Source: Styela clava
Taxonomy: Eukaryota > Chordata > Ascidiacea > Stolidobranchia > Styelidae
DNA length: 64,000 nt
Direction of reading: 5' to 3'
Assembly: GCF_964204865.1 (NCBI RefSeq)
Contig: NC_135252.1
Span: forward strand, 18,807,383-18,871,382
Numbering within the stretch: position 1 is the stretch's first letter; each line of letters begins with the position of its first letter. Below, in pieces: positions 1,580 to 61,700 of this stretch. Below the pieces are notes generated by a model. That model worked only from the letters and a program-made list of their open reading frames with translations. It made no database searches and had not been told where the DNA came from. Both the position numbers and the translations under genes were made by a program.

Positions 1580-4030
1580 CAATTGTAGATGCTAATTTAA
1601 AAAATAAGTTATTTGAAAAATTGACACAGAAATTTTCATCACTACTCAAATGACTACAGTGGTGCATTTTTCTCGTAATGACAAAATTGTTGACACAATT
1701 CAATATGTTAAAGCTTAGTGCTTTGGCAGCCAAACTAAATATCTTAATAACAAAGTCTTTATACTACGCATTAGTCCTACTTGTAATATTTCAAGAAATA
1801 CAAAGGGTTGATGTTGTGGTTGAAAATAGCTGCATTGTTGTTTTATCAACAGCAGTCAGGAAGTTAAAGGCAAACAAGACAAAAGTTACAATTATCCAAT
1901 TATGCATATGTGTTGGTTATCAGAACTTTTTTTTCATAATAGCAATGTACACGATATTAGTGTTTACTTTGTAAGGTTTCAATAATAATTAGGAGTGAAC
2001 ATATGATTTGAAATACTCATTATGTTGTTTCATCGACAAGCTTTATGACTTGAATCAAAACAATGAAATATATACATCATCTCATTATGAAGTTGTGTTG
2101 ATTTATTAGCAAGCGTATGTTATTTTAATGTTTAATTTCCAAGTTTGTAATCACAGTCACTATGCAATGCCTTGATGCTGCAATTGGATATTTTGAAAGA
2201 TAATAATAAATTGCATCATGCAACCGATGTAAAATAAATAAAATAAAAAAAGGTTACAAGCTATAATTATAGGTTGAATTTCTCATTTCAACCTAACGTT
2301 CCTTTGAATGACTACTTTGTATTTCAATCCATAAATATTTAAATAAATTGAATATTTGACGTCACAACTTTATTGCAATTTCCAGTAACGGTAAAAAATC
2401 CCGAAAAAGGGAGTCGCCGCATTACAAAACAAGTCATCAACAGAAACTTGAAACTTTGCTTGATATGTCATATTAGTTTGTAAGTTATATGTTTACGTGA
2501 ACGCTCCATCTTGTTTTTTCGCCAATTTTATCATTCATATAACAAGAAAATTACGACAATATATGCAAATAAAAAAATCGTCGAAAAAAGAAACGAAAAT
2601 AAATCAAAATTTGAATACGGCTTGTGATATTAAATAAGGCTAATCAGAAAATATATTTATTATTGCTATAAGATAGTTACTTGTTTCGTTTAGCATGGTA
2701 TATATGAAAAGTCTTAACAATATTTCCCATCTACCATGAAGAAGACCCTTTTTTTCTAACTTATTACTAAGAAATTAAATATGAGGTTGACCTAAGTTAC
2801 AATTATTGAGAACATACTTATGCAATATTCGGAACATAAAATCAAAGACACTGTTGATTTATCGAGGCCAAGCTTAGCAAGGTCACCATCATATGACCAT
2901 TTTAATTAAAGTAGATGCTAATTTAAAAATGAAATTATTTGAAAAGTTGACACAGAAATTATCATCACTACTCAAATGACTACAGTGGTGCATGTTTGGC
3001 GTATTAAGAAAATGTTGGCATAACCTGATGTGTTGAATCTCAGTGCTTTTGCAGGTGAACCAAATATCTCAATAACAAAATCCTTATATTGCTAAGTGTA
3101 ATATTTCAAGAGATGATAAGGATTGATTTATGGTTGAAAATAGCTGCCATGTTGTTTTATCAACAGCAGTCAGGACGTCAAAGACAAACAAGACAAAAAT
3201 TACAATTAAATTCAATTATGCATATGTGTTGGTTATCGGAACTTTATTTTTTTTCATAATAACAATGTTAATATACACAATATTAGTGTTTGGTTTGTAA
3301 GGTTTCAATAGAAATTGGGAATTTAAAATGTGATTGGAAATATTATAATGTTGTTTTATCGACATGATACAGGATTTGAAATGCAAACAATGAATTATGT
3401 ACATTATCTCATTATGAAATTGTGTTGATTTATTAGCATGCGGGTGTTATTTTAACGTTTATGTACAGAGTTTGTGATCACAGCCACTATGCCAACCCTT
3501 GATGCTGTAATTGGATGTTTTGGAAGATGATGAAACATTGCATCATGCAACCTATGTAAAATAGATAAAAAAGCTCAAAATCTCATTGCAACCTAACCTA
3601 GCTTAAAATCTCTTTGCAACCTAACGTTCCTTTGAATTCAGAAAATGTATCATTGTTATGATGCAATTACTCGTCTCTTCTTGCAAGGTATTTATGAAAA
3701 AGTATAAAAATATTTTCCATTCACCATGAAGAAAAGAAGATCTGTGTTCATAGTTACCTCAAACTTAGAAATTTATAACTTAGAAATGAAAGAAAAAGTT
3801 GATCTAAGCGTCACAATCAATAGTTGAAGCTCACTGCTTTGGCAGCTAAACTAAAAAATGAATAACAAATTTCTGATATAACGGATTAGTACTACTTATA
3901 AAATTTCCGTGAATACAAAGAATTGACTGTGTGGTTGGGAATAGCTGCACTGTTGTTTTATCAACAGAAGTTAGGACGTCCAAGGCAAATGAAACCAAAA
4001 TTACAATTTCCCAATTTTTTTTCATGTTTG
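1580..4030. repeat. Diverged direct repeats inside duplication copy A
   Basis: A core sequence recurs three times in the same orientation: about 1586-1980, 2912-3300 and 3822-4010. All three share the stretch reading like gttgttttatcaacag followed by a variable GTCAGGA-like segment. The first two also share the segment that starts gtagatgctaatttaaaaa. The copies are visibly diverged from each other, so the repeats are older than the A/B duplication. Copy B has one unit fewer. Confidence 0.8.
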
Positions 4031-4501
4031 CAAAATTTTTATGTGTTTTTCATTAAGGGATTATTAATTTTATTTCTGTAAATAAATATTTCTTTATAAT
4101 ATAAAGTGATGAGTTTTCAACTGAATTACATTTACTTTTTGGTTCCCGTGTCTCAGAAATAGCAATGAATGCTATTTTTAAATTTTGAGAAGAAAACTTT
4201 TGAAAGTTTTTTTATCGAAATACATAATGGTTTAATATAAAAAATTTCATTGAGGCTCAAGATTCTATCTATTAGACATTAGTTTATTATTGCAAATTTA
4301 TGAAAAATGAAGAACGTTCCATGTGTAACAGTAGAGAATAATTTCAATATGAAGTAAATTAAGTAATGTAGTATGTGGTATATTGAAAACCAAAAGGCAA
4401 AAACGAAATATAATTCACGATGCAATGTGAAACAGCAAAACGTCTGTCAATATTGGATATTCAATAATATATCATATGGTATAATAACAACTATAACGTA
4501 T

Positions 4502-4527
4502 AACAACAACAACAACAACAACAACAG
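4502..4527. repeat. (AAC)n microsatellite
   Basis: Uninterrupted run of the trinucleotide aac (about nine units). Copy B has only a degenerate remnant at the matching place (near 13610). Confidence 0.95.
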
Positions 4528-5941
4528 GTAATAAGCATTGAATGCCATCTTGTGCTGTTTTAGAGTTTCATTTAATCGGAAATTTACTAAAATATTTAAT
4601 TGAAAACAAAGTAAAATTATACTTCTTAATTTTATAGCTGTAACACTAGTAGATATAATGGATAACCGAAACCCTGAACAAAACTTTAAAAATGAAATAA
4701 ACGTTCAGTCACAATTTATATTCAGTGTTGTTAAAGTATTGGCACCGGGAAAGTGGGACTAATCCAACAAATAAATTTAAAGAGTTCAAAGCGACACGGA
4801 TGGTTTGGTGACAAATTTGTTTTGTTAAAACAGAATAAATCACAAATTTCAGTTTGAGCTGATTGAGGTATCTATATATTGAGCGTTACTGAATGTTTTC
4901 TATATAATGTCTATATTTGTGATCAGCACGGTGCTGAATACAATCATTTGTCTTGAATTTGCAAGCTATATCTATAAATTACCAGGCATTGGGATTTAAA
5001 TTGGCGCTTATTTTATGCTAAGTGTTGATCGGTCCATCTCATTCCTGATTTTATATAAAATACATTTCTAAAGTCTGTCAATAATATTTTGCCAACGTGC
5101 AGCATCTGTTTGTCTAAACGTGTTGGTCTATCCCAGATAAAGGGCACGTATAAAACAACAATACCTGTATACAACGCCTGTTTCTGTTATTATGTCATTC
5201 AAATAGTATCGTTATCAAACTACAACAACTTTAAAGTAGATTCCCTAAATGTGTTTGTCTATCCTGATCATAGGGCACGTGTACAAAACAATAATATACC
5301 TGTTTCTGTCTATTTATTAGTATAACCCTGCTAAAACGCTTAATATTTATTATGTTGGGTATCTCAAAGAAATAATTACAAAGTAGTAATGACAACTTAA
5401 TTGCAAAGCCAACAGAGTGAATTAGACTGAAAAACATCTTATTACTTCCTAATTATACATTATATGATTTTATAGTTTAAAGAATAAATTGATTTCCTAT
5501 AAGCGTAAATTTTCTATACATTGAGTACTTTTTATTTGGATTTTAAAGTTCTATCCTATTATAGTTCTATTCAGTAGATCCGAAAACAGGGCCAATTAAG
5601 ATGCTCGTGGATGAGTCTTCTTCGGATGAGAAGCTGCAAAGCTCTGAAGAATAGAGCCAATTATAATATCTATCTATAAAATGAGATGAATAAATTTGTA
5701 TCTCCAAGTTCAAGGACCTGCAGATCTCGCCTGGATCCACTGATATACGAGATATATATTGGGCATGAAAATGACCTATGCATGCTGAAGAGCATGAATC
5801 TTTTGTTTATCAAATTCAAGCTGCGCCATTGCACGAGCAATTCGATGTCTTATTAACTGTTTATAGTAGCGAGCGTCGAGGATTCATGGCCTAATTACTG
5901 ATAAATAAAATTATCTTTTTTGGACACGAAGTGGACATAAA

Positions 5942-6832: not shown

Positions 6833-6838
6833 TTTATT
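6833..6838 (-). terminator. Polyadenylation signal of the basic secreted protein gene
   Basis: AATAAA on the minus strand, about 100 bases downstream of the stop codon at 6942-6940. It fits the 3' end of the minus-strand transcript. Confidence 0.7.
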
Positions 6839-6939: not shown

Positions 6940-9900
6940 TTAAGCACATCCACAACGAATGTATTGGTAACATCTATTGCGTCTAACGATTCTGAATCTT
7001 CTGTAAGTGCTATAAAAAAGAATATATTATATAATACTAAACCATGTGCGTAAAAAATGACATTATCACTTGGAAAATTATCTTAATCTCAAAGGATTGA
7101 ACATTCGTATATTGAATATGCTTGTTTGCCGGACATGAACCAAAACCAACTTTGTTCATTGATAAATTTAGAAGAACTCACCAGAAGCGCCTGATTTTGT
7201 AGCGGTACACCCTGTAGGTAGGCAAGGCACATTTGTATCTGAAGACAACACGGATCTTTGGGACGGAGAATTTAGCACGGTAAGTGCATCTGTAAGAACA
7301 AGCGTAGTGTCTTGTGAATGTACGGATGTGTTTCCTCCATGCTCTGTCGAACTTGCGAAGTACCCTGTTTCTGTCAGATCTTGCCTTGAGTTTGTATGCA
7401 TTGTAGAGTCTGCGGGCTGCACCACGGAGTATTTTGCTGGTGTAGAATTTCATGAATTTAGCATATTGCCTCACCTTCAGCTTGTAGATCTGAAAAAGGA
7501 TATCAATTAAAAATCTTTATAAAAAATCTCTAAAAAACTTTATTTATTTTGTATACCAGAAAATTATGTTTGAAAAATAAACTAAATTCAATAAAAAATT
7601 CCTATTTTCTAAAATTATTACAAAGTATGGGCTTCAAAATATTATTCAAATTAATTTAACACTTACAATAGTTTACCTTGGTCAGACGTCTTGAAAGGCG
7701 TGTCCTCATTCTCCTTCTCAGTTTCTTGAGACGCCTGCTGTATTTGGTGATTCTTATTTTTCTGGTAGACAAACAACGTTTGTAACCCTTAACAACTCTG
7801 GAGATCAAACGGTTGATCATCTTCTTGTAGCTAGCAATTCTGGATTTGTAGAACTTGGTGGCTCTTGCAAGTCTTCTTGCGAGCATTTTCTTGTATTTTC
7901 TGATTGCCCTTCTCTTTTGACGAAGCAATTGTCTCTTGTATGCTGCAAACTTTCTCAAATAACGTTTAGTGATGCGTTGGGATCTGTGAACAACATAAAT
8001 ATTTTTGCGTGCATTCAACTCAGTCATAACCGTCTGGAGGTGAATTATATTATACATAATGACTTCCAATATATTAATTTAGAAAACTAAATTCAACTCT
8101 TTTTGTAATGAACTCACCTGCACAAGTAAGTGGATCTGAAATAGGTTCTCAAAACTATGTGTCTCTTGTTGACAATTTTGGTGAATCTTTTCAATGCGCT
8201 CTTGTTACGTCTGATAGCAAGTTTTCTCCATGCTCTGTATTTTCTCCATGCGGCGGAAATTGCCTTGTTTCTTCTGGTTTTCAGCTTTTTGGTGAATTTC
8301 TTGACAGATACATTGACCTTTTCTAAAATTTATTATATTATTTTAAAATAACACAAAATGTAACATAAAATATTAAAAATTCGTGGGAAATGTCTCACTG
8401 GTGTTACAAGATTTCAATTTCTTGAATCTCATTTGTCTGTACTTGAATCTGTAAGTGATCAAACGGAAGCATCTGGATCTTCTGATTTTGAATCTCCACA
8501 CGTATCTGATTCTGCGGCTAGAAAATATTAACAAATCATAAAATAAATTTTTACCAATGTTACATTCAAAATTTAGTCAAACCAGTTCAATATCAAATAA
8601 ACTTTTGTCGTCTTACCAGGTACGGTAATAACGTCTTCTTCTGAAGCACAAAGTTCCTGTTGCACATTGATAAGCACATGCGTAATTCTTCACAAGTCTG
8701 GCGGTTGCACTTCTCAGCTTGCGGCTGTATACGCTGGCCCTTCTCAGGTATGCTCTTGTTTCACGTCTTCTGAAGACTCTGATAACTTTGCGCACGTCAC
8801 GTCTTTTCCATGTTCTAGAGCCTGAGAAAAATAATTCATTTTATACTCAAGACAGATAACACACAAATATATGGACAGGAAAGATTCGTCAATGACATTG
8901 TCACGCAGTTTTTAGAACAAGGATTGGCAAATCAAATGAGGGTGAAATAGATTAGTGGTACTACGAATTTGACAAAGCACAGTAGTCAGTTGTAAAATAT
9001 TGATGATAGAAAAACAATTGTTTTTAAAAATTGAAGCCACAATTCAACACAAATGATCAATACTTTCAATTTGTTCATGATGATACTTCGAATGCCAAAC
9101 AAAGTGCTTTTTGTATTCAAAATTGTTTATTTGAAAGTAAAACTACTTACAATGGACTCTAGTGAGGAGTTTCTTGAAGATGGCAACTCTCTTGGTGACG
9201 AATCTCTTCATGACCTTCTTGTACCTTCTCACATATTTGTTCATGCGTTTCTTCAAAGATCTTCTGTATTTGGTAATTCTGGTCTTGCGGTTTCTGAAGC
9301 ACCTTACAGAGCTGTAAATAATATGTTATATCATTTTGTATAGAAATCTTCATGCACATTATGTCTATCTATGAAGTTAATCATACAATCTGCGAAGTCT
9401 TCTGTGGAACTTGAGAACAGTACTGTACATTCTCTTCATAACTCTCTTGTAACTCTTGACTGCACGTCTGTACATTCTGCTGATAGCAGCATTGTATTTT
9501 CTGATTGCCTTACTCTTCAACTTGAGGATACGTCTTCTCTCACGCCTTGAAGCACGACTGTAAATAACAAATTTTAAATCATGTCATGAGAATGCATTTA
9601 TAAGTCGCAACATTAGTGGACTTACCGAAGGTATCTTTTGGTGTATTTGTTGACTGATCTTCTGTATTTTCTTTTGGCTGCAGACACGCGAACGCACATT
9701 ACATTGTACCATTTTCTGTAGCTCTTCTTCATTTGTTTGTGGATTGAGAGGGCTCTTCTGGACAAACGAGTTCTGACAACCCGAACGAACTTCCTTTCAG
9801 ACCATTCTTAAAATTTCATATAGAAAATAATGCATAAGAAATGTCAAATGAAATTTCCTGGCTATCATCTAATTTCCTGGAGCAAATGTGCACAAATTAA

Positions 9901-10545
9901 TAAAAATTCGAATTTGTATATTTATTGCTCCACACTTTATATTGTACATTAGTATTTGTGTATATATGGGGTATTTGTAGTGGTATACGTGATATTGGAC
10001 GTCCTTGCAACGGCCAGTTTCTTCATTTCATTTTTTTTTTCATTGACGCATCAATTTGGCAAATAATAAAGACAAAAGCTATTTCAGGGTGAAATTCTTA
10101 GAGACATTTTTATTAATATTATGTCTAATCAAACAGACAGAAAAACTGTCAAACATGACATTGTCTGTTTCCACAAATAATGTATTATTTGGCTGAATTC
10201 CCTTTGCATGACATGGCTGTTTATAAACTTTCAATAAAATATACCTCTGAATTTTCGGGAGGTGCATCTCTTTCCGGGATATGAGGTCAACACAGAGCGA
10301 TAGTATCTAGAAGTGCACCATGCTTGTTTGAACTTGAAGCTGAATTGGAAACACGTGGATGGGAAAGTGTAATATCTCCTGACGTTCCAGCGGACGTAAC
10401 CGCAGTGACTGGGTTGAATGTAAACGGCGGCATTTGCTGCCTGAAAATGGAAGATTTTGGTTGTCAAACAAAATTGAAAATTAATTTAATACCCTAACAA
10501 TATACTTACGGCCAAGCAGACCAGAAGTACTAACAGAGTCTTCAT
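6940..10545 (-). CDS. Secreted ultrabasic Arg/Lys/Tyr-rich protein, 11 exons, about 652 residues, no family recognised
   Basis: Exons on the minus strand: 10545-10510, 10440-10245, 9806-9626, 9557-9387, 9311-9151, 8821-8617, 8517-8399, 8322-8118, 7983-7677, 7489-7182, 7009-6940. Every intron is GT-AG (68-438 bp) and the phases agree at all ten joins, giving 1959 coding bases. Exon 1 is MKTLLVLLVCLA and continues AANA|AVY, a clear signal peptide with a likely cut after residue 16. Residues 17-77 hold four Cys. The remainder is dominated by Arg and Lys (44 of 102 residues in exon 9) with regular Tyr. I count only seven acidic residues in the whole chain. Helical-looking units such as SYKRVMKRM, RYKKVMKRF and SYKKMINRL recur, as does AWRK. 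A Cys module (YACAYQC in exon 6, YACSYRC in exon 10) appears twice. The protein ends RCGCA. A signal peptide argues against a protamine or histone. A polyanion-binding matrix, adhesive or antimicrobial role is inference only. Confidence 0.87.
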
Positions 10546-10599
10546 GATTGTCTCTACTCGGTGTCGAATAAGGACTGATTTTTGCAGAAAATTTCCCAG

Positions 10600-10606
10600 T
10601 ATATAT
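10600..10606 (-). promoter_or_regulatory. TATA box of the basic secreted protein gene
   Basis: The minus strand reads GCATATATACTGGG, with the TATATA core about 55 bases upstream of the ATG at 10545. That would place transcription start near 10572-10578 and give a very short 5' leader. The ATG has A at -3. The A/B duplication starts about 17 bases further upstream as far as this window can show, because the left copy is cut by the window edge. Confidence 0.6.
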
Positions 10607-13600
10607 GCTGTAGAAATCCACTTCATAATTCCTGATTGTTCATTATAAATTTATCGAAGCAAACACTTCTTCGGGTTGAAGGGCTTTGTAATTTTGGGTG
10701 TGTCTTTTAGTTGTCAGGGCAATATGCATCAATACTTTAGATTGTGCCAATCATACGCCTATATCATTGAAATAACTTTGTGTCTTAGGTCATCTTCCTT
10801 TTTTATTAGTTAATAAACACATCCCTCCTCTTGTAATAGCTAAATGATACTCGTGCTATTGCGTGTGTATAGTTTGTTGTTAGAAACAGTTTGATGCCTG
10901 GGATTATATGTTTAAAACGTAGCTCAACATTGCTTCATGTTTATATTGAGCAGACAATACCAACAATAGCCAATTCTCAAGTGGAGTCTTTTAGCATGAT
11001 CGTGTTTTTAAAGATTTACCGATCATTTCGTTGCTGAAAAAAATTTATTTAATGTTATACATTTAATAAAAAATAAAAAGTCAATTATAGTTTTGCTAAA
11101 CAGTAAATAATTCAGATAACACCAAAGTGTTTAAAAAGTTTCCTATATCGGAACATTATATTATTAATTTCAAGTATAAATTTGCTATATTGCCTGATTG
11201 TTACATATCCCAGTTTTCTATTTGTATTTAATTTCAAATTTCTACTAATTGGCCTTTCCGTGATAATGAAATAGGGAATAGTAAAAAATTTATGTCTTCA
11301 AAAATACACAATATATATTGTGTAAAGTAAACAAGGGGGCAAAGCTCAAATATAAGAACATAAATTCCAATACGTACGGCAAACTTCACGACTAACGCAA
11401 ACGTGAACCGCCGCAAGATGCGCGATTTCTTGATGAGGTAATCACACACTAAAAACGAATCTCATAGAGCCAACAGAAATTTTTGAAATGAATAAAAGTA
11501 ATTGCCTAGCAACCAATACAATTTTTTCCACTGAAAATTTCAAAGCAATTGGTCCAGTAGGTAATAAAAAAAAAGTGAAGAAGGAAAGGAATACTAACAA
11601 CATGATGATCAACAACAACATAATACCAAAACGCTCCATAGGTACTCTCCAATAAGGGTTATACCATATTCCAGGCTAAACGAAGTATGTATAATGATTC
11701 TTTGGTCTCGTACAGCGTAAAGTTTTAAATATTTGCTGTCGTGGGGCTGTCTATGCTGAGGTAAAGCAACAACAAGCGGGTGACCGATAATTTCAAAAGT
11801 AACGTAGCATAAAAGAGTCCAAAGATTGTACTTCCGATTACCAAGTTGAGTTGCCCGGGTTATAGCAGAATTAATGAACAATAGTGAATGAAGAATTATA
11901 AGTCAAGTATTGATAAAAACTTCATCTCTCTTGCGTTAGGACATTGCTATCTAAGAAATTAAACCACTATTTGACAAAATTTACATTAGCATACACACGC
12001 GACCTATTTCGAATAACGGGAAGCTGGTTCATTTCGATTTTTGTGTACGAAATCAAGGCGCGATTTTTGACACAGTATCTTGTTTTCTTATTACATTTGT
12101 TATATTTCTTTGAAAGATATTCATACATATGGTCATACTATTTTATATTCCTTCAATTTATCTTTATTATAACAACAACAAAATAAGACGATGATATATC
12201 ACAATTGTAGATGCTAATTTAAAAAATAAGTTATTTGAAAAATTGACACAGAAATTTTCATCACTACTCAAATGACTACAGTGGTGCATTTTTCTCGTAA
12301 TGACAAAATTGTTGACACAATCTGATATGTTAAAGCTTGGTGCTTTGGCAGCCAAACTAAATATCTTAATAACAAAGTCTTTATACTACGCATTAGTCCT
12401 ACTTGTAATATTTCAAGAAATACAAAGGGTTGATGTTGTGGTTGAAAATAGCTGCATTGTTGTTTTATCAACAGCAGTCAGGAAGTTAAAGGCAAACAAG
12501 ACAAAAGTTACAATTATCCAATTATGCATATGTGTTGGTTATCAGAACTTTTTTTTCATAATAGCAATGTACACGATATTAGTGTTTACTTTGTAAGGTT
12601 TCAATAGAAATTGGGAATTTAAAATGTGATTGGAAATATTATAATGTTGTTTTATCGACATGATACAGGATTTGAAATGCAAACAATGAATTATGTACAT
12701 TATCTCATTATGAAGTTGTGTTGATTTATTAGCATGCGGGTGTTATTTTAACGTTTATGTACAGAGTTTGTGATCACAGCCACTATGCCAACCCTTGATG
12801 CTGTAATTGGATGTTTTGGAAGATGATGAAACATTGCATCATGCAACCTATGTAAAATAGATAAAAAAGCTCAAAATCTCATTGCAACCTAACCTAGCTT
12901 AAAATCTCTTTGCAACCTAACGTTCCTTTGAATTCAGAAAATGTATCATTGTTATGATGCAATTACTCGTCTCTTCTTGCAAGGTATTTATGAAAAAGTA
13001 TAAAAATATTTTCCATTCACCATGAAGAAAAGAAGATCTGTGTTCATAGTTACCTCAAACTCAGAAATTTATAACTTAGAAATGAAAGAAAAAGTTGACC
13101 TAAGCGTCACAATCAATAGTTGAAGCTCACTGCTTTGGCAGCTAAACTAAAAAATGAATCACAAATTTCTGATAAAACGGATTAGTACTACTTATAAAAT
13201 TTCCGTGAATACAAAGAATTGACTGTGTGGTTATAGCTGCACTGTTGTTTTATCAACAGAAGTCAGGACGTCCCAGGCAAATGAGACAAAATTTACAATT
13301 GCCCAATTATTTATATGTGTTGATTTACAAGCAGTAGGATATTTTATTTTCATGTTTTTCAGAATTTGTATATGTTTGTCATTTAGAGATTATTATCTTT
13401 ATTTCTGTGAATAAATATTTCTTTATAATATAAAGTGATGATATAAATAATCTTAACATGAAGTAAATTAAGTAATATAGTACGCGGTATATTGTAAACC
13501 AAAATGTAAAATTGAAATAAAAATTCACGATGCAATGTGAAACAATAAAACGTCTATTAATAATGAAAATTTATTAAATATATCACGTGGTATAATAACA

Positions 13601-14163
13601 ATTATAACTTATATCCACAACCCGTAATAAGCATTTAATGCCATCTCCTGTTGCTTTAGAGTTTCATTTAATTAAAAACTAATATTGCTTAATTGAAAAC
13701 AAAGTAAAATCATACTTCTCAATTTTATAGATGTAACACTAGTAGGTATAATAAAAAAAATCCTGAAATCCTGAACAAAACTTTTGAGATGAAATAAAGG
13801 TATACTAACAATTTTTGTTCAGTGTTGTTAAAGTAGTGGCTCCAGAAAAGTGAGATTAATCCAACAAATAAATTTAAAGAGTTCGAAACGACATGGATGG
13901 TTTGGTGGCAATATTGTTTCGTTAATACAGGATAAATCACAAATTTCATTTCGAGATGATTGAGATATGGGTATATATATTTAAATATATATTGAGCGTT
14001 ATTGCATGTTTCCTATATAATGTCTATATTTGTGATAAGCACGGTGCTGAATACAATCATTTGTCTTGAATTTGCAAGCTATATCTCTATGTAACCAGGC
14101 ATTCTGAATTAAAATGCATGCATTTTATGTGAAATGTTAGGTCGGTCTCTTTAGAGTTTAGAC

Positions 14164-26769: not shown

Positions 26770-29700
26770 ATGGCATTGCCAAAAAAATCTGAGGCGGAGA
26801 AAATGATTGGAAAAAGTAGCGGTATTGGTACTCAGTGCTCCGCATATGATTGCAAAAAACGTTTTAAAAGGAAGGACTTTCGAAGTGATAGCGAGGGAGA
26901 TGATGACGAGGAAAGTGTGCTGAAACGAAAATATCCAAGGACATTTCATAAGTAAGAAAAATAGCCCAGCAGTTTGTGTTAACAATATCAGTTTTCAGTT
27001 GTCTGCCAGTGTGTGTTTTAGCAATTTGTTCATAGCCTGCTAAACATTGTAAAAGATAAAGCTAGTTTTATTATCATGATATACAGATATATGTTAGAGT
27101 AAATGCATACAGGTATAGCTGTCTCGGTACAGTATTGAGGCTCGTCTTCTGTAACTATAAGGTCAGAAGTCAGTTTGTAGTAAAGTTGTAATTTAGTCAA
27201 AGTTGTTGGAAAAATTGTATAAGCATTTAAATCATTTGGGCTGAAGGCGACAGCAAGTTTATAACATACAAAGTGGTCAACAATTTAGCGCATAAAACTA
27301 TTATTGACTAGAAAAGAGCGTTTTTGACTATACAGATAGACTATGTTAAATCCAAATTCTGGTTCTGGCCTGCTTCAATTCAAGTAGCTCAAATCCGAAT
27401 AAATTGTGCACTTACTGCATGAAATGATTATCAGTTCTTTTTTGCTCATACATAATTAACAATATTTTTCTCAGATTTCCTTTGAATAAGGCACTTTGCG
27501 AGAAGTGGGTAACTGCTTTGCGGAGGGCGAATTGGATTCCAACTAGTTCTTCACGTTTGTGCTCTGACCATTTTAAAGAGAGCGATATTAAGAGAACCGG
27601 GCAACGCACAAGAATTAAGGACAATGCTGTTCCGACCCGATTCAAAGCATTTCCAAAATATTTAAGAAAGGTATGCATAAGATAAACAACAAATTGAATC
27701 CTCAATAACTTTAAATGTTGTACCCAAAGCGACAAAAAATCCTGTCACATATTTTAATGGGTGTTTTTTTCATATATCGGGCAATTAAGATCACTATAGC
27801 ATGCAGATACCTAGTATTTTAGCTTATGGTAATAGACTTGATCTGTTATGTATTTTAATTTTTAGTTTATCGGAATAACTATATAAAATCATCTGTTTAT
27901 GTGATGTGTGAGATTTTTTTTTACAACAAATGCCTTCTAAATTTTTTAAAATTCTCGTTTTTTGCCACATGCTTCGGTTCAACGCATCTAAAGTGGGACA
28001 TGCTCATGATCATCAAAATTTCTTGCAGGTCAACGAACAGCGAAAGTCATCGACAAAAAGAAAATTTCATTCATGTGTAAGGCAGAAGTGGTCAGTGCAG
28101 GAGAAATTTAACAATGTGCTCCATGACCACTCATATTCACAGGTCATTGCTTCACCTACAAAGTTAAAAAAATTAAATCTCAGCTTACAACATTTAAAAG
28201 CAGTAAGAAAACGTCTCCGGCTTTGCCAAAAAAAAACATATCGATTGCAAAAACATGTAAAATCTCTTGAAACGGTGCTAAAGTCCCTGAGAAAGAAAAA
28301 CTTGGTGAGTGCTTCATGTGAAGAAAGTCTACAGCGATCTATACCTTCATCAATCTTCAATAGAATTTTAATGAATTTACAAACTGGAAAAGGCGTCAAA
28401 TATCCCAAGGAGCTAAAAACTTTTGCTATGACTTTACAGTTCTATTCAAATAAAGCGTATCAATATGTGCGGAAAGTCTTAAATCTGGCTTTACCACATC
28501 CAAGCGTAATAAGAAAATGGTACCAGAAACTTCCAGCTGAGCCTGGTTTCACAAAAATTGCATTTGATGCGATCCGGCTGAAGGTGAGTGCTGCATCGCA
28601 CCCATTGATTTGTGCTATGATGATTGATGAAATGGAAACATGTTGCTTGGGATGGAGAAAGGTCCCATTGATTTGTGCTATGATGATTGATGAAATGGAA
28701 ACATGTTGCTTGGGATGGAGAAAGGTATCGAGGCTTTGTTGACCTGGGAAATGCTGAAAATCAGGATGATTCTGCCCCACTTGCCAAGGAAGCTCTTGTT
28801 TTGATGGCTGTTTGTGTGAATGGGTCCTGGAAAGTACCTTTGGAATATTTTCTCATTAATGGATTGACCGGAGAAGAAAGAGCAAACATCATACAGATTG
28901 GGATTCAAAGATTGAGTGAAACTGGAGCCAAGGTGGTATCCTTAACTTGTGACGGGCCATCTTGTCATTTTTCAATGCTCTCTCAGTTAGGAGTTGTTGC
29001 CTCGCATGTAAGCATGCAATCATATTTTTACTCATCCTTCGTGCCCATCTGAGCGGATTTATGTTTTCATGGACGTTTGTCACATGCTTAAATTAGTCCG
29101 AAACACCCTTGCACCATGCAAGTTGATATTGCTGCTCAAACCCTGAGCAGCAGTGTTGCAGATGCGATCGAATACTCTGATACGGTGCTGAAATTCAAGC
29201 AGTTTAGTGGAAGCAACTGTAAAATTTATCAGAATTTTTGACCAGCTTTTTGATGTGCTAAATTCCAGAAATCCCTTCGCTAAACGATTTAAGGAGCCAC
29301 TAAGACCTTCAAATAAGCATATTTGGTAACCATTCATGAATCAAGCATGTGCATACATTGCACAGTTGAAGGATTCTTCAGGAAGACCAATCTTGATGTC
29401 AAGAAGAAAAACTGGCTTTATTGGCTTTTTGTTATCTGTATCCAGTGCAAAAGGCGTGTTCAATGACTTGGTCACTTCAAAATATTTAAAATATCTTTTA
29501 ATGTACAAATTTAGTCCGGATCATTTGGAACTCTTTTTCTGTGCTGTAAGAGGTGCTGGGGGATTCAATAATAATCCAACTGTGCAACAATTTACTTCTG
29601 CCTATAAACGACTGCTTATGAGAAGTGGGGTAAAAGGCACAGGAGGGAACTGTGAGCCCCAGGATGCAACAAGCATTTTGAATGTTTTGGACAGCTTCAG

Positions 29701-30322
29701 TCTGACTAATCATAATATGAGTTTAAGCTCAGTATATTTTATGAAGAAATATGACCTTGAACCACGGACTCCACTAACTTCTGACCATGACTATGCTGAC
29801 ATACCTAACACAATCAGGTTGTCAGAATACAAGCTTCAAATAATCAAATATATTGCAGGATTTGTTGCAAAGAGGCTGCGAGATACCATGTTTTGCATAA
29901 AATGCAAGGAGGCTCTCGTATCATCTACTGATCATACTTCAAGTTTAATATATTTTAAAAACCGTGGAGGATTAACAGTTCCGTCAGCAAGTGTTATAAA
30001 AGTTTGTAGAGAAACTGAAAAATGTTTTCAAAGAATATTAGCTACCTCTGGAGGTAGACTGCCCTAATCCCCTGGGCTCATCAATGCTATCGTTATTGCA
30101 GTGCAAGATGGTTTAATCGATAAGCCTATTTTTCCCGACCTTGTAAACCACTGGCGCGATACAGGGTTTGGTGATTGCCATATTAGTTTGATGGGGAAGG
30201 CCATTATTAAAGCATATTGTGGCATAAGGGCCAAACATATGGCACGAGAGTTTAATGACCAAGCTTCTGCAGTTAATGTAAGAAAAAAATTGTCAAAGTT
30301 AATTATATTTCAGCACCAGTGA
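26770..30322 (+). pseudogene. THAP-domain P-element/THAP9-like transposase, decayed
   Basis: Exon 1 (26770-26951) and exon 2 (27475-27670) join in phase 2 to give a THAP zinc finger: CSAYDC near the N terminus, then W, and SSRLCSDHF. Exon 3 starts at 28029 after a TTGCAG acceptor. It encodes a basic helical stretch, then the P-element transposase core, with CAMMIDEM, AWDGERYRGFVDLG, LTCDGPSCHF, FMDVCHMLKLVRN, RKTGFIGFL and PDHLELFFCAVRGAGGFNNN in the expected order. The gene is broken: a frame change within a 63-bp tandem duplication (28601-28726), a frame change at a T run near 29026, one or more between 29200 and 29335, and an in-frame TAA at 30065-30067, after which the same frame runs to 30322. 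An AATAAA lies just downstream near 30379. Family and order of motifs are clear. Loss of function is inferred from the breaks. Confidence 0.9.
28601..28726 (+). repeat. 63-bp exact tandem duplication inside the transposase
   Basis: 28601-28663 and 28664-28726 are the same 63 bases (beginning cccattgatttgtgctatga). The repeat is a multiple of three, so it adds 21 residues without shifting the frame. However, the frame must still change within it to reach the conserved AWDGERYRGF block. The identity of the copies indicates a recent event. Confidence 0.95.
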
Positions 30323-34265: not shown

Positions 34266-34488
34266 TATTTTCATTCATCAGAAACAAAATTACAAAGTAG
34301 AGAATTGCCAGATTTTCAAATATATACAAAATATGAAAACCAATATCTATTTCCTAATAAATAACACGTTTTTATTCAAAATGTGAGTAGGTAGGTCAGA
34401 TCTGATTATAGAGATCCACTTTATATATTATTATTCTACTAATTTGAATATCTTTTTATTTAACAATGCAGATTGACTATTAATAAAT

Positions 34489-35808
34489 ATGTCTAGTGTG
34501 TTTGTGCCTCAACATGTTCGTGGAAGCAAAGGTCCTGTTACACAAGAAACTATACAAAAACTTCTGGATGAAAATAGTCATTTAATTCAATGCATTGTTG
34601 ATAATCAAAACAGCGGGAATAGACGAGAATGTGCACAGTATCAGCAAATTCTACATCGCAATCTAGTATGGTTGGCTACTGTCGCTGACTCTAATCAAAG
34701 CAATGCTCAAAACTTGCTAAATCAAACTTCACCCAAACAGGGTATCGGTGGAATGCCAATGCCACAATCGACCAAACTTATGAAATCTGAGGCATCAAGT
34801 TTACTATCTTCTAGTGTGCCAGCACCCGAGACTTCAGCAATAGTAACCCTGCCGAATCAAACTGTCCCAAAAGCAGCAACACCCAAACTGACTGCTGCTA
34901 ATCCTTCTACGGTATCGCCAGCATATGCTTCACCTCACAGATCGTCACCACAAACGAAGACTCCATACAGCCAGCCACAGCAAGGTACTTTTCCAGCGCA
35001 ATATCGCAGATCACCAAACTCTGCTGGAAGCAGAACTCCTATGAGAAGTCCAAGTGACCCAAGTCAGCCTCACACACCCGTCCCACCAGCCCAGCGACAA
35101 TCACCACTAGCTACGACTTCGATGCCCCCTCAGTATCCACCACAACAACAGCCAATGCAGAGTAATATGCCAGTGCCGAACCAGGCCACAACTTCTTTTT
35201 CACACCCACCTCCTGCATCTTATCCACAGTCCCAGGCTTCATACAATCAGCAGCAGCTTGCACCTGCGTCGTACCCTCAGCCTCCACCAGCTTCATCTTA
35301 CTCCCAGCAACAACAAATTCACTATCAGCAGCCTCCTCCCCCCTCATCATACAGTCAAGCACAAGTCTATCCACAGCAGCCACAAGCAGGTCCTTATAAT
35401 CATCAGCCGTCAGGATATGGCCCACCACCCTCTAGTGGCTACCCGCCAAATCAGAGTGCACCTCACCCAGGGCAGTCATCTGCAAACTATCCGCAACAAG
35501 GACCCCAACCCCACCAATATCCAACTTCTACACACCAAGGAATGATGCAGCAACAAGGCCAGCCCCTTCCTTATTATGGGAGACCTGGCCCACCACAGAG
35601 CTCAGCTGGCTACCCAGGATACCCTGTGCCACCAGCCGGGCAACAAATGCCTCCACCTAGTCAGCAGTACACACAACAACAACCCCGTCAGCAGTCTCCA
35701 AACTACTCTGCTCAGTATGCAACGCCACCATCTCAGCAAAGTCCCCATTATAGTCAGCAGCCTACTGCCCCATCACAGGCACCGCAGCAGCAAATGCCTT
35801 ATCAGTAA
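34489..35808 (+). CDS. SS18: SS18 / SYT homologue, BAF chromatin-remodelling subunit, 439 residues
   Basis: Residues 15-75 form the SNH domain of the SS18 family, with the conserved ETIQKLLDENSHLIQCIVDN and a CAQYQQILHRNLVWLATVAD block. The remainder is a QPGY domain: Gln, Pro, Ser and Tyr dominate, with repeated YPQ, SYSQ and GYP units to the C terminus. In known SS18 proteins the SNH domain binds the BRM/BRG1 helicase and the QPGY tail drives self-association and activation in the nucleus. The length is close to the vertebrate protein (about 400-420). The coding region is one uninterrupted exon. A TTTAACAATGCAG acceptor 22 bases before the ATG suggests an upstream untranslated exon, so this need not be a retrocopy. 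The frame is intact. The gene symbol is by family, as I cannot exclude the SS18L1/CREST type. Confidence 0.95.
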   Translation: MSSVFVPQHVRGSKGPVTQETIQKLLDENSHLIQCIVDNQNSGNRRECAQYQQILHRNLVWLATVADSNQSNAQNLLNQTSPKQGIGGMPMPQSTKLMKSEASSLLSSSVPAPETSAIVTLPNQTVPKAATPKLTAANPSTVSPAYASPHRSSPQTKTPYSQPQQGTFPAQYRRSPNSAGSRTPMRSPSDPSQPHTPVPPAQRQSPLATTSMPPQYPPQQQPMQSNMPVPNQATTSFSHPPPASYPQSQASYNQQQLAPASYPQPPPASSYSQQQQIHYQQPPPPSSYSQAQVYPQQPQAGPYNHQPSGYGPPPSSGYPPNQSAPHPGQSSANYPQQGPQPHQYPTSTHQGMMQQQGQPLPYYGRPGPPQSSAGYPGYPVPPAGQQMPPPSQQYTQQQPRQQSPNYSAQYATPPSQQSPHYSQQPTAPSQAPQQQMPYQ

Positions 35809-55700: not shown

Positions 55701-58700
55701 GGCTCCAGACATAATAATACGAGATAAAACTGCCGGCTTATATTTAATCTTTGATATATATTTTTGAGCTCTTGCAAATTCGTTATCACCGTTATAAAAT
55801 CCCAAGATCTGCTATAGAGCCGTAGAAATTACAATTTAATTAGGAATAGTAAAAATACTTATAAAGTATGGTGATTTATGTCTTAAAATCTAGCAGCGCC
55901 TAAAACAGCCACGACATTTGGCCCTGCTGACGTATACTGGTCGTCTTTTAAAGCATTGTGTTTTGATTTGAAAGTCATTCCTTGGTTTGTGCTGCTTTAA
56001 GACTCTTAGTTGACGTTTGAGCTAATAAAAGCCTACTGTACGAGCTTGTTTCTTTCTGTATTAGGTTCACCACAATTTATTAGCTCAAATTGTACAATTG
56101 TACAGCTGCAATTGTACAGGAGTACAGTTGAATGATATGGTGAATTATTTTTATAATTACTGTATATCAATTGAATTTCCCCGACTTTTATTTTTACATT
56201 CTCTTCCAAATCATATATGATGATTCATATCAATCTTGTTGGTTAATTTGTGAATGAATAAGTGTCTCTTTGTGCTTATTGCTTTCATTTATTTCAATTT
56301 TTATTAACTCGTTTTTAATCTTGGTGTCGCAGACTTATGATGACCATCTCTGGTCCTGACTTCCAGTCATTTGCAATGAAATCCGTTACTGTAACGCATA
56401 ATTACTTCTTCCTATTTTGAATTTGTGTTGTAATATCTTACACGACGAAATAAACTTATTGTCTATTGTTTTAAATTTGAACGATTAACTGGTTTCCTGG
56501 AAGCAATGGCAACTTCTGACCAAAAACCTATTCGGGTGCCAGTGATTGGATGTCTTGCCGAAGGAAGTTGGAGCTCTAAAAGTATTTTCCCATTGGGATA
56601 GAATGCTTACAGATTACTTAACAGTTGTATAATCCAACAGCTCCACGGAAGATGTTTCACGGCTAATTAACAAATGTGCTATCATGAGTCGATATTTATC
56701 AACTGAAGTGTTTTCCTTTGTGGAAGATGTAGATGTGTATGATGAAGCTATGGCGATTTTGCGCAAACATTATCATAAAAAGGAGAATATCATATATGCA
56801 AGGCACACGCTGGCTACACATGTTCAGTTGAGCAGTGAAACAATCTCCGAATTTTCCAAACGCTCAAGTCCCTTGCTGCGAATAGAGCTGTCCAAGCAAA
56901 CCGAATATTCGAAATCGAATCGCAAATTATTCGAATCGTTTTTCGACTAATTTTCGAAGTGCTAAAATGAGGTATATCAAGAGAAAAAAAGTCTCACGAA
57001 CACTTTTGCACATCTTTTTTAATCGGGCAAGTGACACATATTTCTCTAGCCTTTCAATTTGCGGTAAAAAAGGCAATTTAGTTTTTGTAGAAAATGCTAG
57101 TTCTATAATTAGAATCGATTTGAAGCTGTTGAGTCAGTAATCATAAGAATGTGGTACGGGTAACTTGAAGCTGAAACACATGCTGGAAGATCCTTATGAT
57201 GGCAATATCTGCTTTCAATGGAATTTGTAATTTCCCATGATGACAATACTTCGTATTATACGCAAATTACTATAAAAAAGAAATCGCATTCTGATGGCTG
57301 TTGTACAGTAACAATACAATCATCAAATAATAATGTCATCCTTAGCTCCAAATTCGAGACCTCCCTAAATGCAATTCAAAATTTCATGGGCAACAGTTTT
57401 ATCTATATTCTAATCTATATTAATGGTTGTCAATCATTTTGCTGAAAATTACACACAAGAAAACAGAGTTAAGAATGGTGATAATGGAATTGAAATAGCT
57501 TTGCATGTCTTATTAAAATTGAATTCATCAGATTTGCGTAAATAAATTATTGAGACTATGTGCAATTTTCAACTCACAACACTCGGCAGTTTTCTAAACC
57601 CCAATTTTAAGGACTTCTAAAGTTAATCTCCTTTTATAACTTTGAAAACATAATTGTGCAAAATATCAGCAGTAATTTAGATGTAACTGCACATATGTTA
57701 TCACAATATTGCATGGGGAATTTTTATTGTATGATAGAGACAGAATTAGGATAGCGCAATAATATTCGGTTCGATTCGGGAAAAATATTCGATTTGATTC
57801 GGATCAAAAAATATTAGATTTTGGACAACCCTACTTGCAAAATATTGTAATTTCAAAGCAGTCAGCGCCGAGCAACACAGAGTGGAGGCGCTAAGTCTAC
57901 AATGGTTTTCAACCTTTTTTCTTTCATGGCCCATTTTCGTTGCACAAAAATTTCCGTGGCTGATTAAATTTTTATTGCGAGAGAAAAACTACAAGAAAAA
58001 TCAAAATCTTTCTACGAAAATGAAACACTTTCCTTTTAATAATTAGAATTAATCACCATTCAGTAGCAGTAAACAGCATCATCAATCATTGGCACTACAA
58101 TCAAAACTAAGGATAGTGATACATATGAAACAATTTTTAAGTTTTGTGGCCCATCTCGAAATCTCTCCGTAGCCCAGCAGTGGGCCATGCCCCACTGGTT
58201 GAGAACCAGTGTGCTAAGAGATGCGCTTATAACAGCGCTAGTATTCGATGAAGATTGCTAGAATATGACTTATTATCACTGGAAAAAGCTATTCAAATTG
58301 CTGATTCTTTAGAACAGGCCGAGAAATTCTCGCATTCGTACAGCAATCAATGAAAATGCAGCCGCTGCATCAACGGATGATCAATCTTCGGTAAATGAAG
58401 GAGGCAATTTTATGAGTTTAGCTCTGATAGTGACCAACTCGTAGCTGCTGCAGGAAGTACTGACGGAACAAAAGTTAATAATTTTTGCGGACGAATTCAT
58501 GCTTTAAATCGACAGAAGTGCCATGCTAGAAACGCAGAGTTTTTTAATTGTGGCTTCCGAGGACATTTCGTAAAAGTTTGCCGCAGAGCGAAGAAATGGG
58601 TTGCTACCGTAAACGATTCGTACCTGACTTCAAATATTGCTGGTATTCATATTTCGTTGTCACGATCGACGAATATTGCTAGAATTGAGGAAAACCCTCT

Positions 58701-61700
58701 GGTGGCTTTACTAGACTCCGGCGCTTCACAGAGTTACGTAAAGGCATCCGTGGCAAGAAGTCTTAGCCTCACACTCTACGGTCCAAAGACTGTAACTGCA
58801 CTTGCTTCAAACGATGCAGTTGCACAAACAATTGGGTTCGTTGACGCATCTATAAACAAAGCAAACATCGAGAAGTTGTCTTCAAATTCAACGTAGACTA
58901 CGACTTCTTGTGCGTTGGTAAAGAGATCTGCAATTTTGCTAGCGCTAAAGTAAGTGGACGTTTACGTATTTTTTTTTATTTGTTGACGATAACTGTAAGC
59001 CCATCACTGTCAGGTCCAGAAATTACAGTTCCGATGATCTAAAGTTTACTAAAGATGAGATTGCTCGTTTGTTGCGGGAAGGCGTTATCGAACGGTCAGA
59101 GTCGCCGCGGCGCGCTCAAATATTGGTCACGAAAGACCAAAGACATAAAATACGTCTTGTTATTGACTATTCACAAACAATAAATAGATAGATGCACAGA
59201 TGCACCGCTCTTGACGCTTATCCCTTACCTTGCATAAACAATATAATGAACGAGGTGGCTAAAGGAAGGATCTACAGTACAGTACCATTGATTTACGTTA
59301 AGTTACTTATCACCAAATTCCTATTACCAATTTACAACCTCTTATTAATCTTAAACCACCCGAAAATGGAAATAATTTGAAACGGTGCTTGGGAATATTT
59401 ACCTACTATTCGAAATGGATATCTAAATTATCTAAAAAATTAAAGCCACTCTCAACTAATACATTGATTCCCCTTAAAGGTAGAGATTCATTGATTTTGA
59501 AGGGCCCGTCGCGAGAAAACGACGATATTTACTCGTGATATTGGACAAGTATAGTAGATTCCCTTTTACATACCCATGTGCGGACATGACTGCAATCACT
59601 GTCACGAAATGTCTCGCGTCATTATTTTCTTTGGTTGGTTTACCGGAGCATGTTCACAGCGACAGAGGAACTTTCTTTTTTGGCCAATGAACTGAAACAG
59701 TTTCTTACAAGAAAGGGCATAGCGACTAGCAACACAACTCCTTGTCACCCGAAAGGGAATTCCCAGTGCGAAAGAGCAAACCGGACCATATGGAAAAATA
59801 TCAAACCAATGCTGCTATCAAGAACTCTGCCCGAAAGTGGTTGGGAGGAGTTCTGCCAGACACTTTACATGCGACAAGATCACTTCTTTGCACCTCCACT
59901 GGTACTACGCCACATATTCGCTTGTTCAATTTTAAAAGACGGTTTTACGGTTTCAACGAGTGATCTGGCGCGATTCCCTGACGCTGTACAATCTGACTGA
60001 AAGCAATTGGAAATTGAAAATACTAAACCCGTATTGGAATCAACACGTCAGGATACTCCATACAGTTTTGAAATTCCTGATTTGAAGAACGATGAGACAA
60101 TTTCTTCTGATTACTTAGTTGAGGTAGCAGATAAAACTTCTTCTCCAATTAAGGAGGAAGAAATGCCTATTCGTCGGTCGAGTCGTTTAAAGGGGCGCTT
60201 GATCGTTATGGAGACTGGGCCTCGTAATTGAGCAACTTTTAAATTCCTTTATTCCAGATTAATGTTTCCAAATTTGAGGTATTATTATACTTTTATTGTT
60301 ACTTATCGATCTTAAGATCGATAGGTATTTGTCTGTCTGTATGTTTGTCTGTGTGTTAGATGCACGCGATATCTCACGGAAGCGAGGTTGAATCTGCTCC
60401 AAATTTTGCATGTGCATTCATCATAGCTCGGATCAGAAGCCTATTGATTTTGGATGGATTGTGTCTTATAATTAGCGAGGTATTAATTAATTAGTGATGG
60501 GACACACGGTGTCACTATGAAGTAAGACCACTGTTTTGGGGGATCCCTTAACCTTCGATCGATAAGTCTTCGGTTTCTAACCGATATTCTAGTTTTACTT
60601 TTATCGTACAACTTCGTCATTTTAAGACTCCTACTTTGAAGACTCGTTTGAGCTAATAAAAGCCTACTGTACGAGCCTTTTTCTTTCTATATTAGGTTCA
60701 TCACATTAATTATATATATATATATCAAAGATACATCGCCTAGAAATCACCCCGAACTTTTTCAACGGATTTTTTTAACCCATGACTTATTTAAAATGGG
60801 TTGCCTTATTAATTTAATTGTGCATCACTACTTCAAAATACCCCGACAATCCCTGACCATGAAAATGTGTCGTAAAATGATCGATTATATTTTGTTTCAA
60901 ATGTTTAGGCAAATTTCGAATCTGAAGTGTTCCTGCAACACTCATCCCACTCCAGCACAATACTGCAACTTATTATTTCGAAGATATCACCGTAAAAAAA
61001 TCTCTAAACGGGTAGGCATGTTATGGCCTTAATGTATTTAATGGTCCAAATCGAAAAATAAGTTAACCCCGGAAAAATGATAATTTTCACATTCGCTCAA
61101 TAAGACGCCGAACCCAAATCAAACCAAAAAATAAAATCGGTCTAAAAAAGCGTCTTAGTCGCCAAGAAATACGGTATTTATTTTATCAATGGTCATACGC
61201 AATTATTTTGTAAGTTTGATATCCAAGTCGCATATATGGGAGTGAAGATGTTGATTCATCAAGCAATTCTTTCTCCGCCCAGAAGCTAGCGGTTTTACTG
61301 TAACTCCACGCATTGTTTTGTCAAAATCCACCCGCTCAACGGCGATAAAACGTAAACATAATGCTTTGGTTAGACACAGTTTTAGTTATTAACTAAGGAC
61401 GCTTTATCGGGAAATCTTGCGCCTCTCAGAATTTTTTATTCTTACATTAATCCATTGATTCGCATTCTGCCTGTCCAGTAGAACAGTCAATCTGTACAAT
61501 CTCACGCGTCTCTCTTCCTGTGAAAATAAATGTATACATCTTAAAAAATAAACAGGCCCGCATGATTTAAAAACTGACTGAATTCAGGTTCCGAAAAAGG
61601 TTCTGTTTACATGAGCTGTACCATCTTTGAAAGCGTATATAATTAGTAAAACGACAGTGCAGCATCAATTGTTTCCTGATTTATCGAACAACGCACTCAA

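Follow-up and report, generated by a model that had tools for sequence, protein, structure and literature searches.

The locus at positions 6940 to 10545 of the window (the whole 64,000-nucleotide stretch of DNA from the stolidobranch ascidian Styela clava analysed here, C3:18807383-18871382 of a 376.6 Mb genome assembly in 379 contigs) raises the question of what kind of protein is encoded by a minus-strand gene in many pieces, whose product is extremely basic, and what such a chain could be for. The original prediction had drawn the gene as 11 exons with ten agreeing joins, encoding a protein of 652 residues of which seven are acidic, and re-splicing reproduced all of this together with the range. 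The gene runs from 10545 down to 6940, all ten introns have the form GT...AG, and the spliced exons make up 1959 nt, which encode 652 residues plus a stop codon. The intron phases are, in order, 0,1,2,2,1,2,1,2,0,2, and all joins agree.

The gene is one of a tandem set. A 401-base probe from the gene matched seven sites at 99-100% identity, all on the contig of the window (C3), and tblastn over 151 kb returned the identical set of seven copies, spaced by about 10.6 kb. The exons, the splice borders and the reading frame are intact in all seven copies, each of which encodes 652 residues. Averaged over all pairs of copies, divergence is 0.24% in the exons, which are free of indels, and 1.17% in the introns, which do carry indels; the exons are thus about five times less diverged. 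The codons that vary among the copies number 15, and 10 of them change the residue, a pattern that taken alone speaks only weakly for constraint. The copy in the window is the last of the array, at its right edge. It carries Q at residue 44, L at 445 and I at 547, three positions at which R stands in the remaining six copies; its mature chain contains 230 Lys and Arg residues compared to 233 in the other six.

The composition of the protein was then calculated. The 652 residues include 144 Arg, 87 Lys, 53 Tyr and 23 Cys, with three Asp and four Glu, the seven acidic residues being E78, E81, E144, D257, E269, D566 and D575. The computed pI is 11.9 and the charge at pH 7 is approximately +224, or +223 for the mature chain, bearing out the claim of a strongly basic chain. 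The mature chain comprises 636 residues, with merely six Gly and five Pro. The start of the protein, MKTLLVLLVCLAAANA/AVY, looks like a signal peptide, with the cleavage site placed by eye, and this start is common to the basic protein and a Styela clava paralog, LOC120330333. The claim of likely secretion holds, the signal-like form being judged by eye, and the protein is probably secreted; we infer secretion or storage in granules, and also a high output. The emphasis on many Tyr stood in part: the 53 Tyr are present, but they represent no special enrichment, as 56 occur in the mature chain of LOC120330333, which is near neutral.

A search of 5.8 billion proteins with E up to 10 listed two relatives, both from Styela clava. 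The first, LOC120330333, is a protein of 650 aa representing a cluster of 25 sequences and aligns at 39% identity with 100% query coverage (E 1.4e-144). The second, LOC144430467, has 529 aa and is apparently an incomplete model. A three-sequence profile, scored on the best 7997 candidates by shared words, returned the same two Styela proteins, as did the middle Cys domain used alone as a query, with no others. Because the protein search needs shared 5-residue words, distant relatives may be missed. The basic protein itself was absent among the matches listed for the full-length, profile and single-domain queries of the protein collection, which therefore seems to hold no annotation of it.

In the genome, the near-neutral relatives form two arrays on another contig (C16). 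Exon matches gave lower bounds of 14 copies for the minus-strand array (10.610-10.726 Mb) and of 11 for the plus-strand array (11.376-11.497 Mb), at least 25 near-neutral copies in total, one of which encodes LOC120330333 with two differences in 650 residues. The reading frame is open throughout in 12 of the 14 minus-strand copies; of the other two, one is broken by an in-frame stop and one extends into a stretch of N letters. One copy from each array was spliced, and both have 11 exons, the same ten phases as the basic gene and nearly equal exon lengths. The dN/dS between a plus-array reference copy and 13 minus-array copies was 0.33-0.52. Synonymous sites have reached saturation (pS 0.74) between the basic and the neutral paralog, which marks their split as old, and the nominal dN/dS of 0.17 at these saturated sites gave no codon-level sign of positive selection. 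A six-frame profile search of 151 kb around the C3 array and 130 kb around the C16 minus array detected no family member outside the arrays at E 0.01.

Since the seven copies keep their frame and splice borders, and a 39% identical paralog shares exon number and phases, the gene model is beyond chance, and on this comparison of copies and paralogs the basic-protein gene is genuine. The LOC120330333 family and the basic protein are alike in full-length similarity, in their 11 exons and in their ten intron phases; they differ in that the family is near neutral and the basic protein is not, near-neutrality not being taken as family-defining. Judged from these alignments, the basic protein belongs, as a charge-altered form, to an undescribed family whose listed members all come from Styela clava. 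The statement that it fits no family was right as far as Pfam and PDB go, with no significant match in either, but it does have kin, namely the near-neutral paralog of the same architecture, besides the other copies of its seven-copy array.

The charge difference between the paralogs was examined site by site. The mature LOC120330333 chain contains 94 acidic residues and 102 Lys and Arg (net charge approximately +8, pI 8.3), compared to seven acidic and 230 Lys and Arg residues in the mature basic protein (net +223, pI 11.9). The 94 acidic sites of LOC120330333 are occupied in the basic protein by Lys or Arg at 52 sites, by uncharged residues at 36, by acidic residues at five and by a gap at one, and a further 107 sites that are uncharged in LOC120330333 carry Lys or Arg. 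Its 103 basic sites are basic at 72 positions, uncharged at 30 and acidic at one. The alignment has 647 sites, of which 396 differ; the charge rises at 195 of these, falls at 32 and is the same at 169. Read from neutral to basic, the shift over the aligned sites is +214, compared to 33 +/- 10 (maximum 68) in 2000 simulated runs in which an equal number of replacements was drawn from general BLOSUM62 exchanges. The framework was kept to a large extent: 39 of the 55 aligned Tyr and 19 of the 30 aligned Cys are identical (one of the Cys lies in the signal-like start), 18 of 29 Cys and 39 of 56 Tyr of the mature LOC120330333 chain are retained, and of 151 strongly hydrophobic sites, 116 are strongly hydrophobic in both. 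As aligned, the basic protein has hardly any of the acidic residues of its paralog and many more basic ones, a difference of about +220 charges; as a comparison of two paralogs, this sets no direction to the change. We infer that this difference was selected.

The paralogs share what we read as a layout of a Cys/Tyr domain, a helical block, a Cys domain, a second helical block and a last Cys domain. On the minus strand of the window, exon 1 (10510-10545) encodes most of the signal-peptide-like start, MKTLLVLLVCLA, and a 36-nt exon stands likewise in the near-neutral paralog. Exon 2 (10245-10440; phase 0 in, 1 out) encodes the end of this start and the N-terminal Cys/Tyr domain. The first helical block begins in exon 3 (9626-9806; phase 1 to 2), continues through exon 4 (9387-9557; phase 2 to 2) and exon 5 (9151-9311; phase 2 to 1) and ends in exon 6 (8617-8821; phase 1 to 2), where the middle Cys domain begins and extends into exon 7 (8399-8517; phase 2 to 1). 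The second helical block begins in exon 8 (8118-8322; phase 1 to 2), continues in exon 9 (7677-7983; phase 2 to 0) and ends in exon 10 (7182-7489; phase 0 to 2), which also begins the C-terminal Cys domain; that domain ends in exon 11 (6940-7009), followed by the TAA stop codon. Comparison by hhalign found the two halves alike over the helical blocks (probability 97, E 1e-11, 170 columns). The likeness may reflect an internal duplication, although a shared helix repeat could inflate the score. The C-terminal Cys domain had no significant hhalign match to either half.

The helical blocks were analysed for periodicity. In the two longest helices of each paralog, the power at the angle of an 11-residue repeat (98.2 degrees) was 12.7-20.4, compared to 0.2-2.1 at the heptad angle (102.9 degrees). 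A hydrophobic stripe was tested in six helix segments of both paralogs, and in nine of the 12 tests no more than 2 of 300 shuffles were as strong; the remaining three tests (17-27 of 300 shuffles) concerned two short segments of the neutral paralog and one of those segments in the basic protein. The exon 9 peptide alone was predicted to form one helix over residues 3-101 of 102 (99 residues; mean pLDDT 88.2). The full-length model of the neutral paralog was poor and mostly helical, with a mean pLDDT of 49.5. The picture that emerges is one of amphipathic helices whose polar face is close to neutral in LOC120330333 and basic in the window protein.

Comparison with known families showed that no Pfam family reached its cut-off for the basic or the neutral paralogs, and no PDB chain matched significantly (best E 0.15 and 0.21 for the two paralogs). 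The weak matches of the basic protein to CHASE6_C (E 0.23), to RPRD1B and to a 40S S20-like chain (the last two at E 0.15-0.29) were set aside, being of the kind that basic helices produce by chance. The apolipoprotein A1/A4/E family (PF01442) is built on an amphipathic 11-residue repeat and resembles both Styela paralogs in this helix periodicity; the Cys domains set the Styela family apart. The neutral paralogs scored 14.1 and 20.4 bits against PF01442, and the family was not listed for the basic protein in a Pfam search at E up to 10. An apolipoprotein assignment was rejected, as the weak score fits the 11-residue repeat yet lies far below the 90-bit cut-off.

What the basic protein does may be considered from its charge. 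Tentatively, and with somewhat less than even confidence, we favour a role as a polycation made in bulk, by which anionic polymers, for example granule heparin, would be condensed or anchored. Large amounts of the protein would be kept in store or secreted, with a structural function, and the seven tandem copies would presumably serve this bulk output. The basic surfaces of its helices would attach to polymers that are highly sulfated or anionic in some other way and condense them; these may be granule heparin or sulfated glycans of the plasma or tunic, and disulfides, perhaps with oxidised Tyr, would fix the complex of polycation and polyanion. One paper reports that ascidian test cells have heparin-like material in their granules and that haemocytes of Styela plicata contain heparin, and titles in its reference list point to co-located histamine and a sulfated plasma glycan (PMC5487770). 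Because a chain with about +220 charges would be expected to meet and hold polyanions, and heparin is reported in ascidians, condensation of a sulfated polymer is favoured, the polymer partner being deduced from the charge and from a congener and so put forward conditionally. A fuller version of this proposal is doubtful: selection would have removed nearly every acidic residue and added about 130 basic ones on a large secreted helical scaffold whose framework was kept, and the resulting dedicated polycation, tandem-amplified for bulk output, would condense the animal's own sulfated polymers (granule heparin or tunic glycans) into a cross-linkable solid.

A very basic duplicate of a granule protein would have precedent. 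Eosinophil major basic protein is a granule polycation with a less basic homolog; the likeness lies in the less basic paralog, and the difference in its C-type-lectin fold and its acidic pro-region. A further duplicated granule protein is eosinophil cationic protein (RNase 3), whose counterpart is eosinophil-derived neurotoxin (RNase 2); it is very basic, with a pI above 11 and 19 outward Arg, and binds heparin (PMC3030543). It differs from the Styela protein in belonging to a separate family and in having only 133 residues. The size of the change over the whole chain is what appears to be new: in a narrow check of the literature, we know of no example of a charge change this large over a mature chain of 636 residues. 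Text searches found no paper on LOC120330333 and nothing relevant on supercharged paralogs, and among the best matches listed for tandem expansion in Styela none mentions Styela clava.

The main rival to the bulk polycation is a polycation of host defence; this reading we consider unlikely. Its cationic amphipathic helices, intact or cleaved, would damage microbial membranes. The mean hydrophobic moment is higher in the basic protein than in the neutral paralog (0.27 vs 0.17), as are the numbers of dibasic pairs (74 vs 14) and furin-type motifs (4 vs 0), but the furin-type motif count is ordinary once the positions of basic residues are kept (P 0.24). An apparent avoidance of these motifs in a full shuffle (P 0.004) is not claimed because of the same P value of 0.24. 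Styelins are cationic, and precursors of cationic antimicrobial peptides carry an acidic pro-region that balances the charge; the basic protein, with seven acidic residues in its whole chain, has none. Support comes also from styelin D, a dopa-containing antimicrobial peptide of Styela clava haemocytes with 32 residues (PMC3039461), and from the cytotoxicity ascribed to the basic gene duplicate eosinophil cationic protein in PMC3030543. However, the basic protein is far larger than antimicrobial peptides. A reference title in PMC3039461 names styelins and clavanins as helical antimicrobials of Styela clava haemocytes, and PMC4904370 gives clavanins as 23 residues; these molecules of the same species are set apart from the 652-residue protein by their short length. 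The framework common with the near-neutral paralog points moreover to a retained fold.

A structural or adhesive role appears decidedly less probable than host defence. The basic protein would mix with its near-neutral paralog or with other matrix proteins to give a Tyr-rich material, cross-linked by disulfides and dopa, that may serve as a coat, an egg envelope, tunic or a glue. That both paralog groups are tandem-amplified and have a common Tyr and Cys framework is in keeping with this, as are the Tyr and dopa compounds reported from the blood cells of several ascidians (PMC3039461). Ferreascidin and others are dopa-containing ascidian blood proteins in which Tyr is modified to dopa. However, the paralog is near neutral (approximately +8) and no polyanion, which leaves no obvious electrostatic partner, and for this reason the idea that it is the matching polyanion was dropped; the low Gly and Pro content of the mature basic chain also speaks against such a material. 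Tuphoxin and rusticalin are prominent blood-cell proteins of the congener Styela rustica (PMC9395347 and PMC6339383). Tuphoxin is described there with EGF-like, thrombospondin and tyrosinase domains, and the basic protein, which has none of these Pfam domains, is set apart from it on that description.

Binding of nucleic acids, with packaging of the protamine or histone type, is very improbable: the charge speaks for it, but the signal-like start (by eye) and the Cys domains are common to a near-neutral, secreted-type paralog, and no nuclear protein family matched in Pfam. That the copies are decaying or drifting, or that the gene model is spurious, is scarcely credible, since the absence of the protein among the listed protein-collection matches, the 10 residue-changing codons out of 15 and the three Arg replaced in the window copy stand against seven intact copies out of seven with splice borders kept, exons about five times less diverged and free of indels, and a gene structure common with the paralog.

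If the supercharged duplicate condenses sulfated polymers as proposed, it would be a protein counterpart of the packing of histamine and heparin in mast-cell-like granules. If it is expressed as inferred above, the change would be among the most extreme natural charge changes known to us that extend over a whole secreted protein with its framework kept, and what is known of the chemistry of granules, tunic or eggs in tunicates would gain an apparently unannotated product. The near-neutral relative persists in many copies in the same genome, which makes the pair a natural experiment on a helical scaffold tolerating about +220 charges.

Putative control elements flank the gene. A TATA-like box, CATATATAC, lies on the minus strand at 10599-10607, about 55-60 bases upstream of the ATG. 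The sequence from CATATATAC through the ATG aligns with the promoters of near-neutral paralogs (five rows compared), and farther upstream the likeness is weak. An AATAAA hexamer resembling a polyadenylation signal lies on the same strand at 6833-6838, some 100 bases beyond the stop codon. The stretch at 1-2243, which is part of the spacer between tandem units, recurs at 10623-12866 with 96.6% identity, and the right edge of the seven-copy array lies at approximately 12866. None of the best 30 DNA matches between the C3 and C16 stretches compared falls in the exons of the genes; the strongest of the matches represent a repeat common to both contigs, which on C3 lies to the left of the array.

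Comparison of the tandem copies of the basic protein gene on C3, the contig that contains the window, showed that the copy deviating at the three Arg sites is the window gene (6940-10545), which itself lies at the edge of the array. In the C16 minus array, a tandem array of a near-neutral paralog on another Styela clava contig, one outermost copy carries an in-frame stop and the copy at the opposite edge is readable only in part. The three deviant sites of the window gene, together with the in-frame stop in the outermost C16 copy, suggest that edge copies of arrays may escape homogenisation.

Examination of the database model of the near-neutral paralog LOC144430467 (529 residues) showed two gaps relative to the genome copies: the Cys domain at the C-terminus is missing, and so is an internal segment corresponding to residues 239-253 of the paralog LOC120330333. 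The model is therefore probably incomplete or misjoined.

In the spacer region of the C3 tandem array, further diverged repeat blocks were found at 1585-5034 and 12207-14147 (identity about 78-92%), some of them outside the array edge. Three further features were noted on the plus strand of the window. A P-element/THAP9-type DNA transposase is present in pieces at 27912-30067, with Tnp_P_element, TNP-like RNase H C-terminal and THAP9_C domains, and its first open frame contains a perfect direct duplication of 63 bases (28601-28726). The open frame at 34477-35808, with an SSXT domain (102 bits) and a tail rich in Gln and Pro, is SS18-like and appears to belong to a conventional gene conserved in animals. 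Another open frame, at 58399-58896, has a retroelement-type aspartyl-protease domain scoring 24.9 bits against a cut-off of 24.3.
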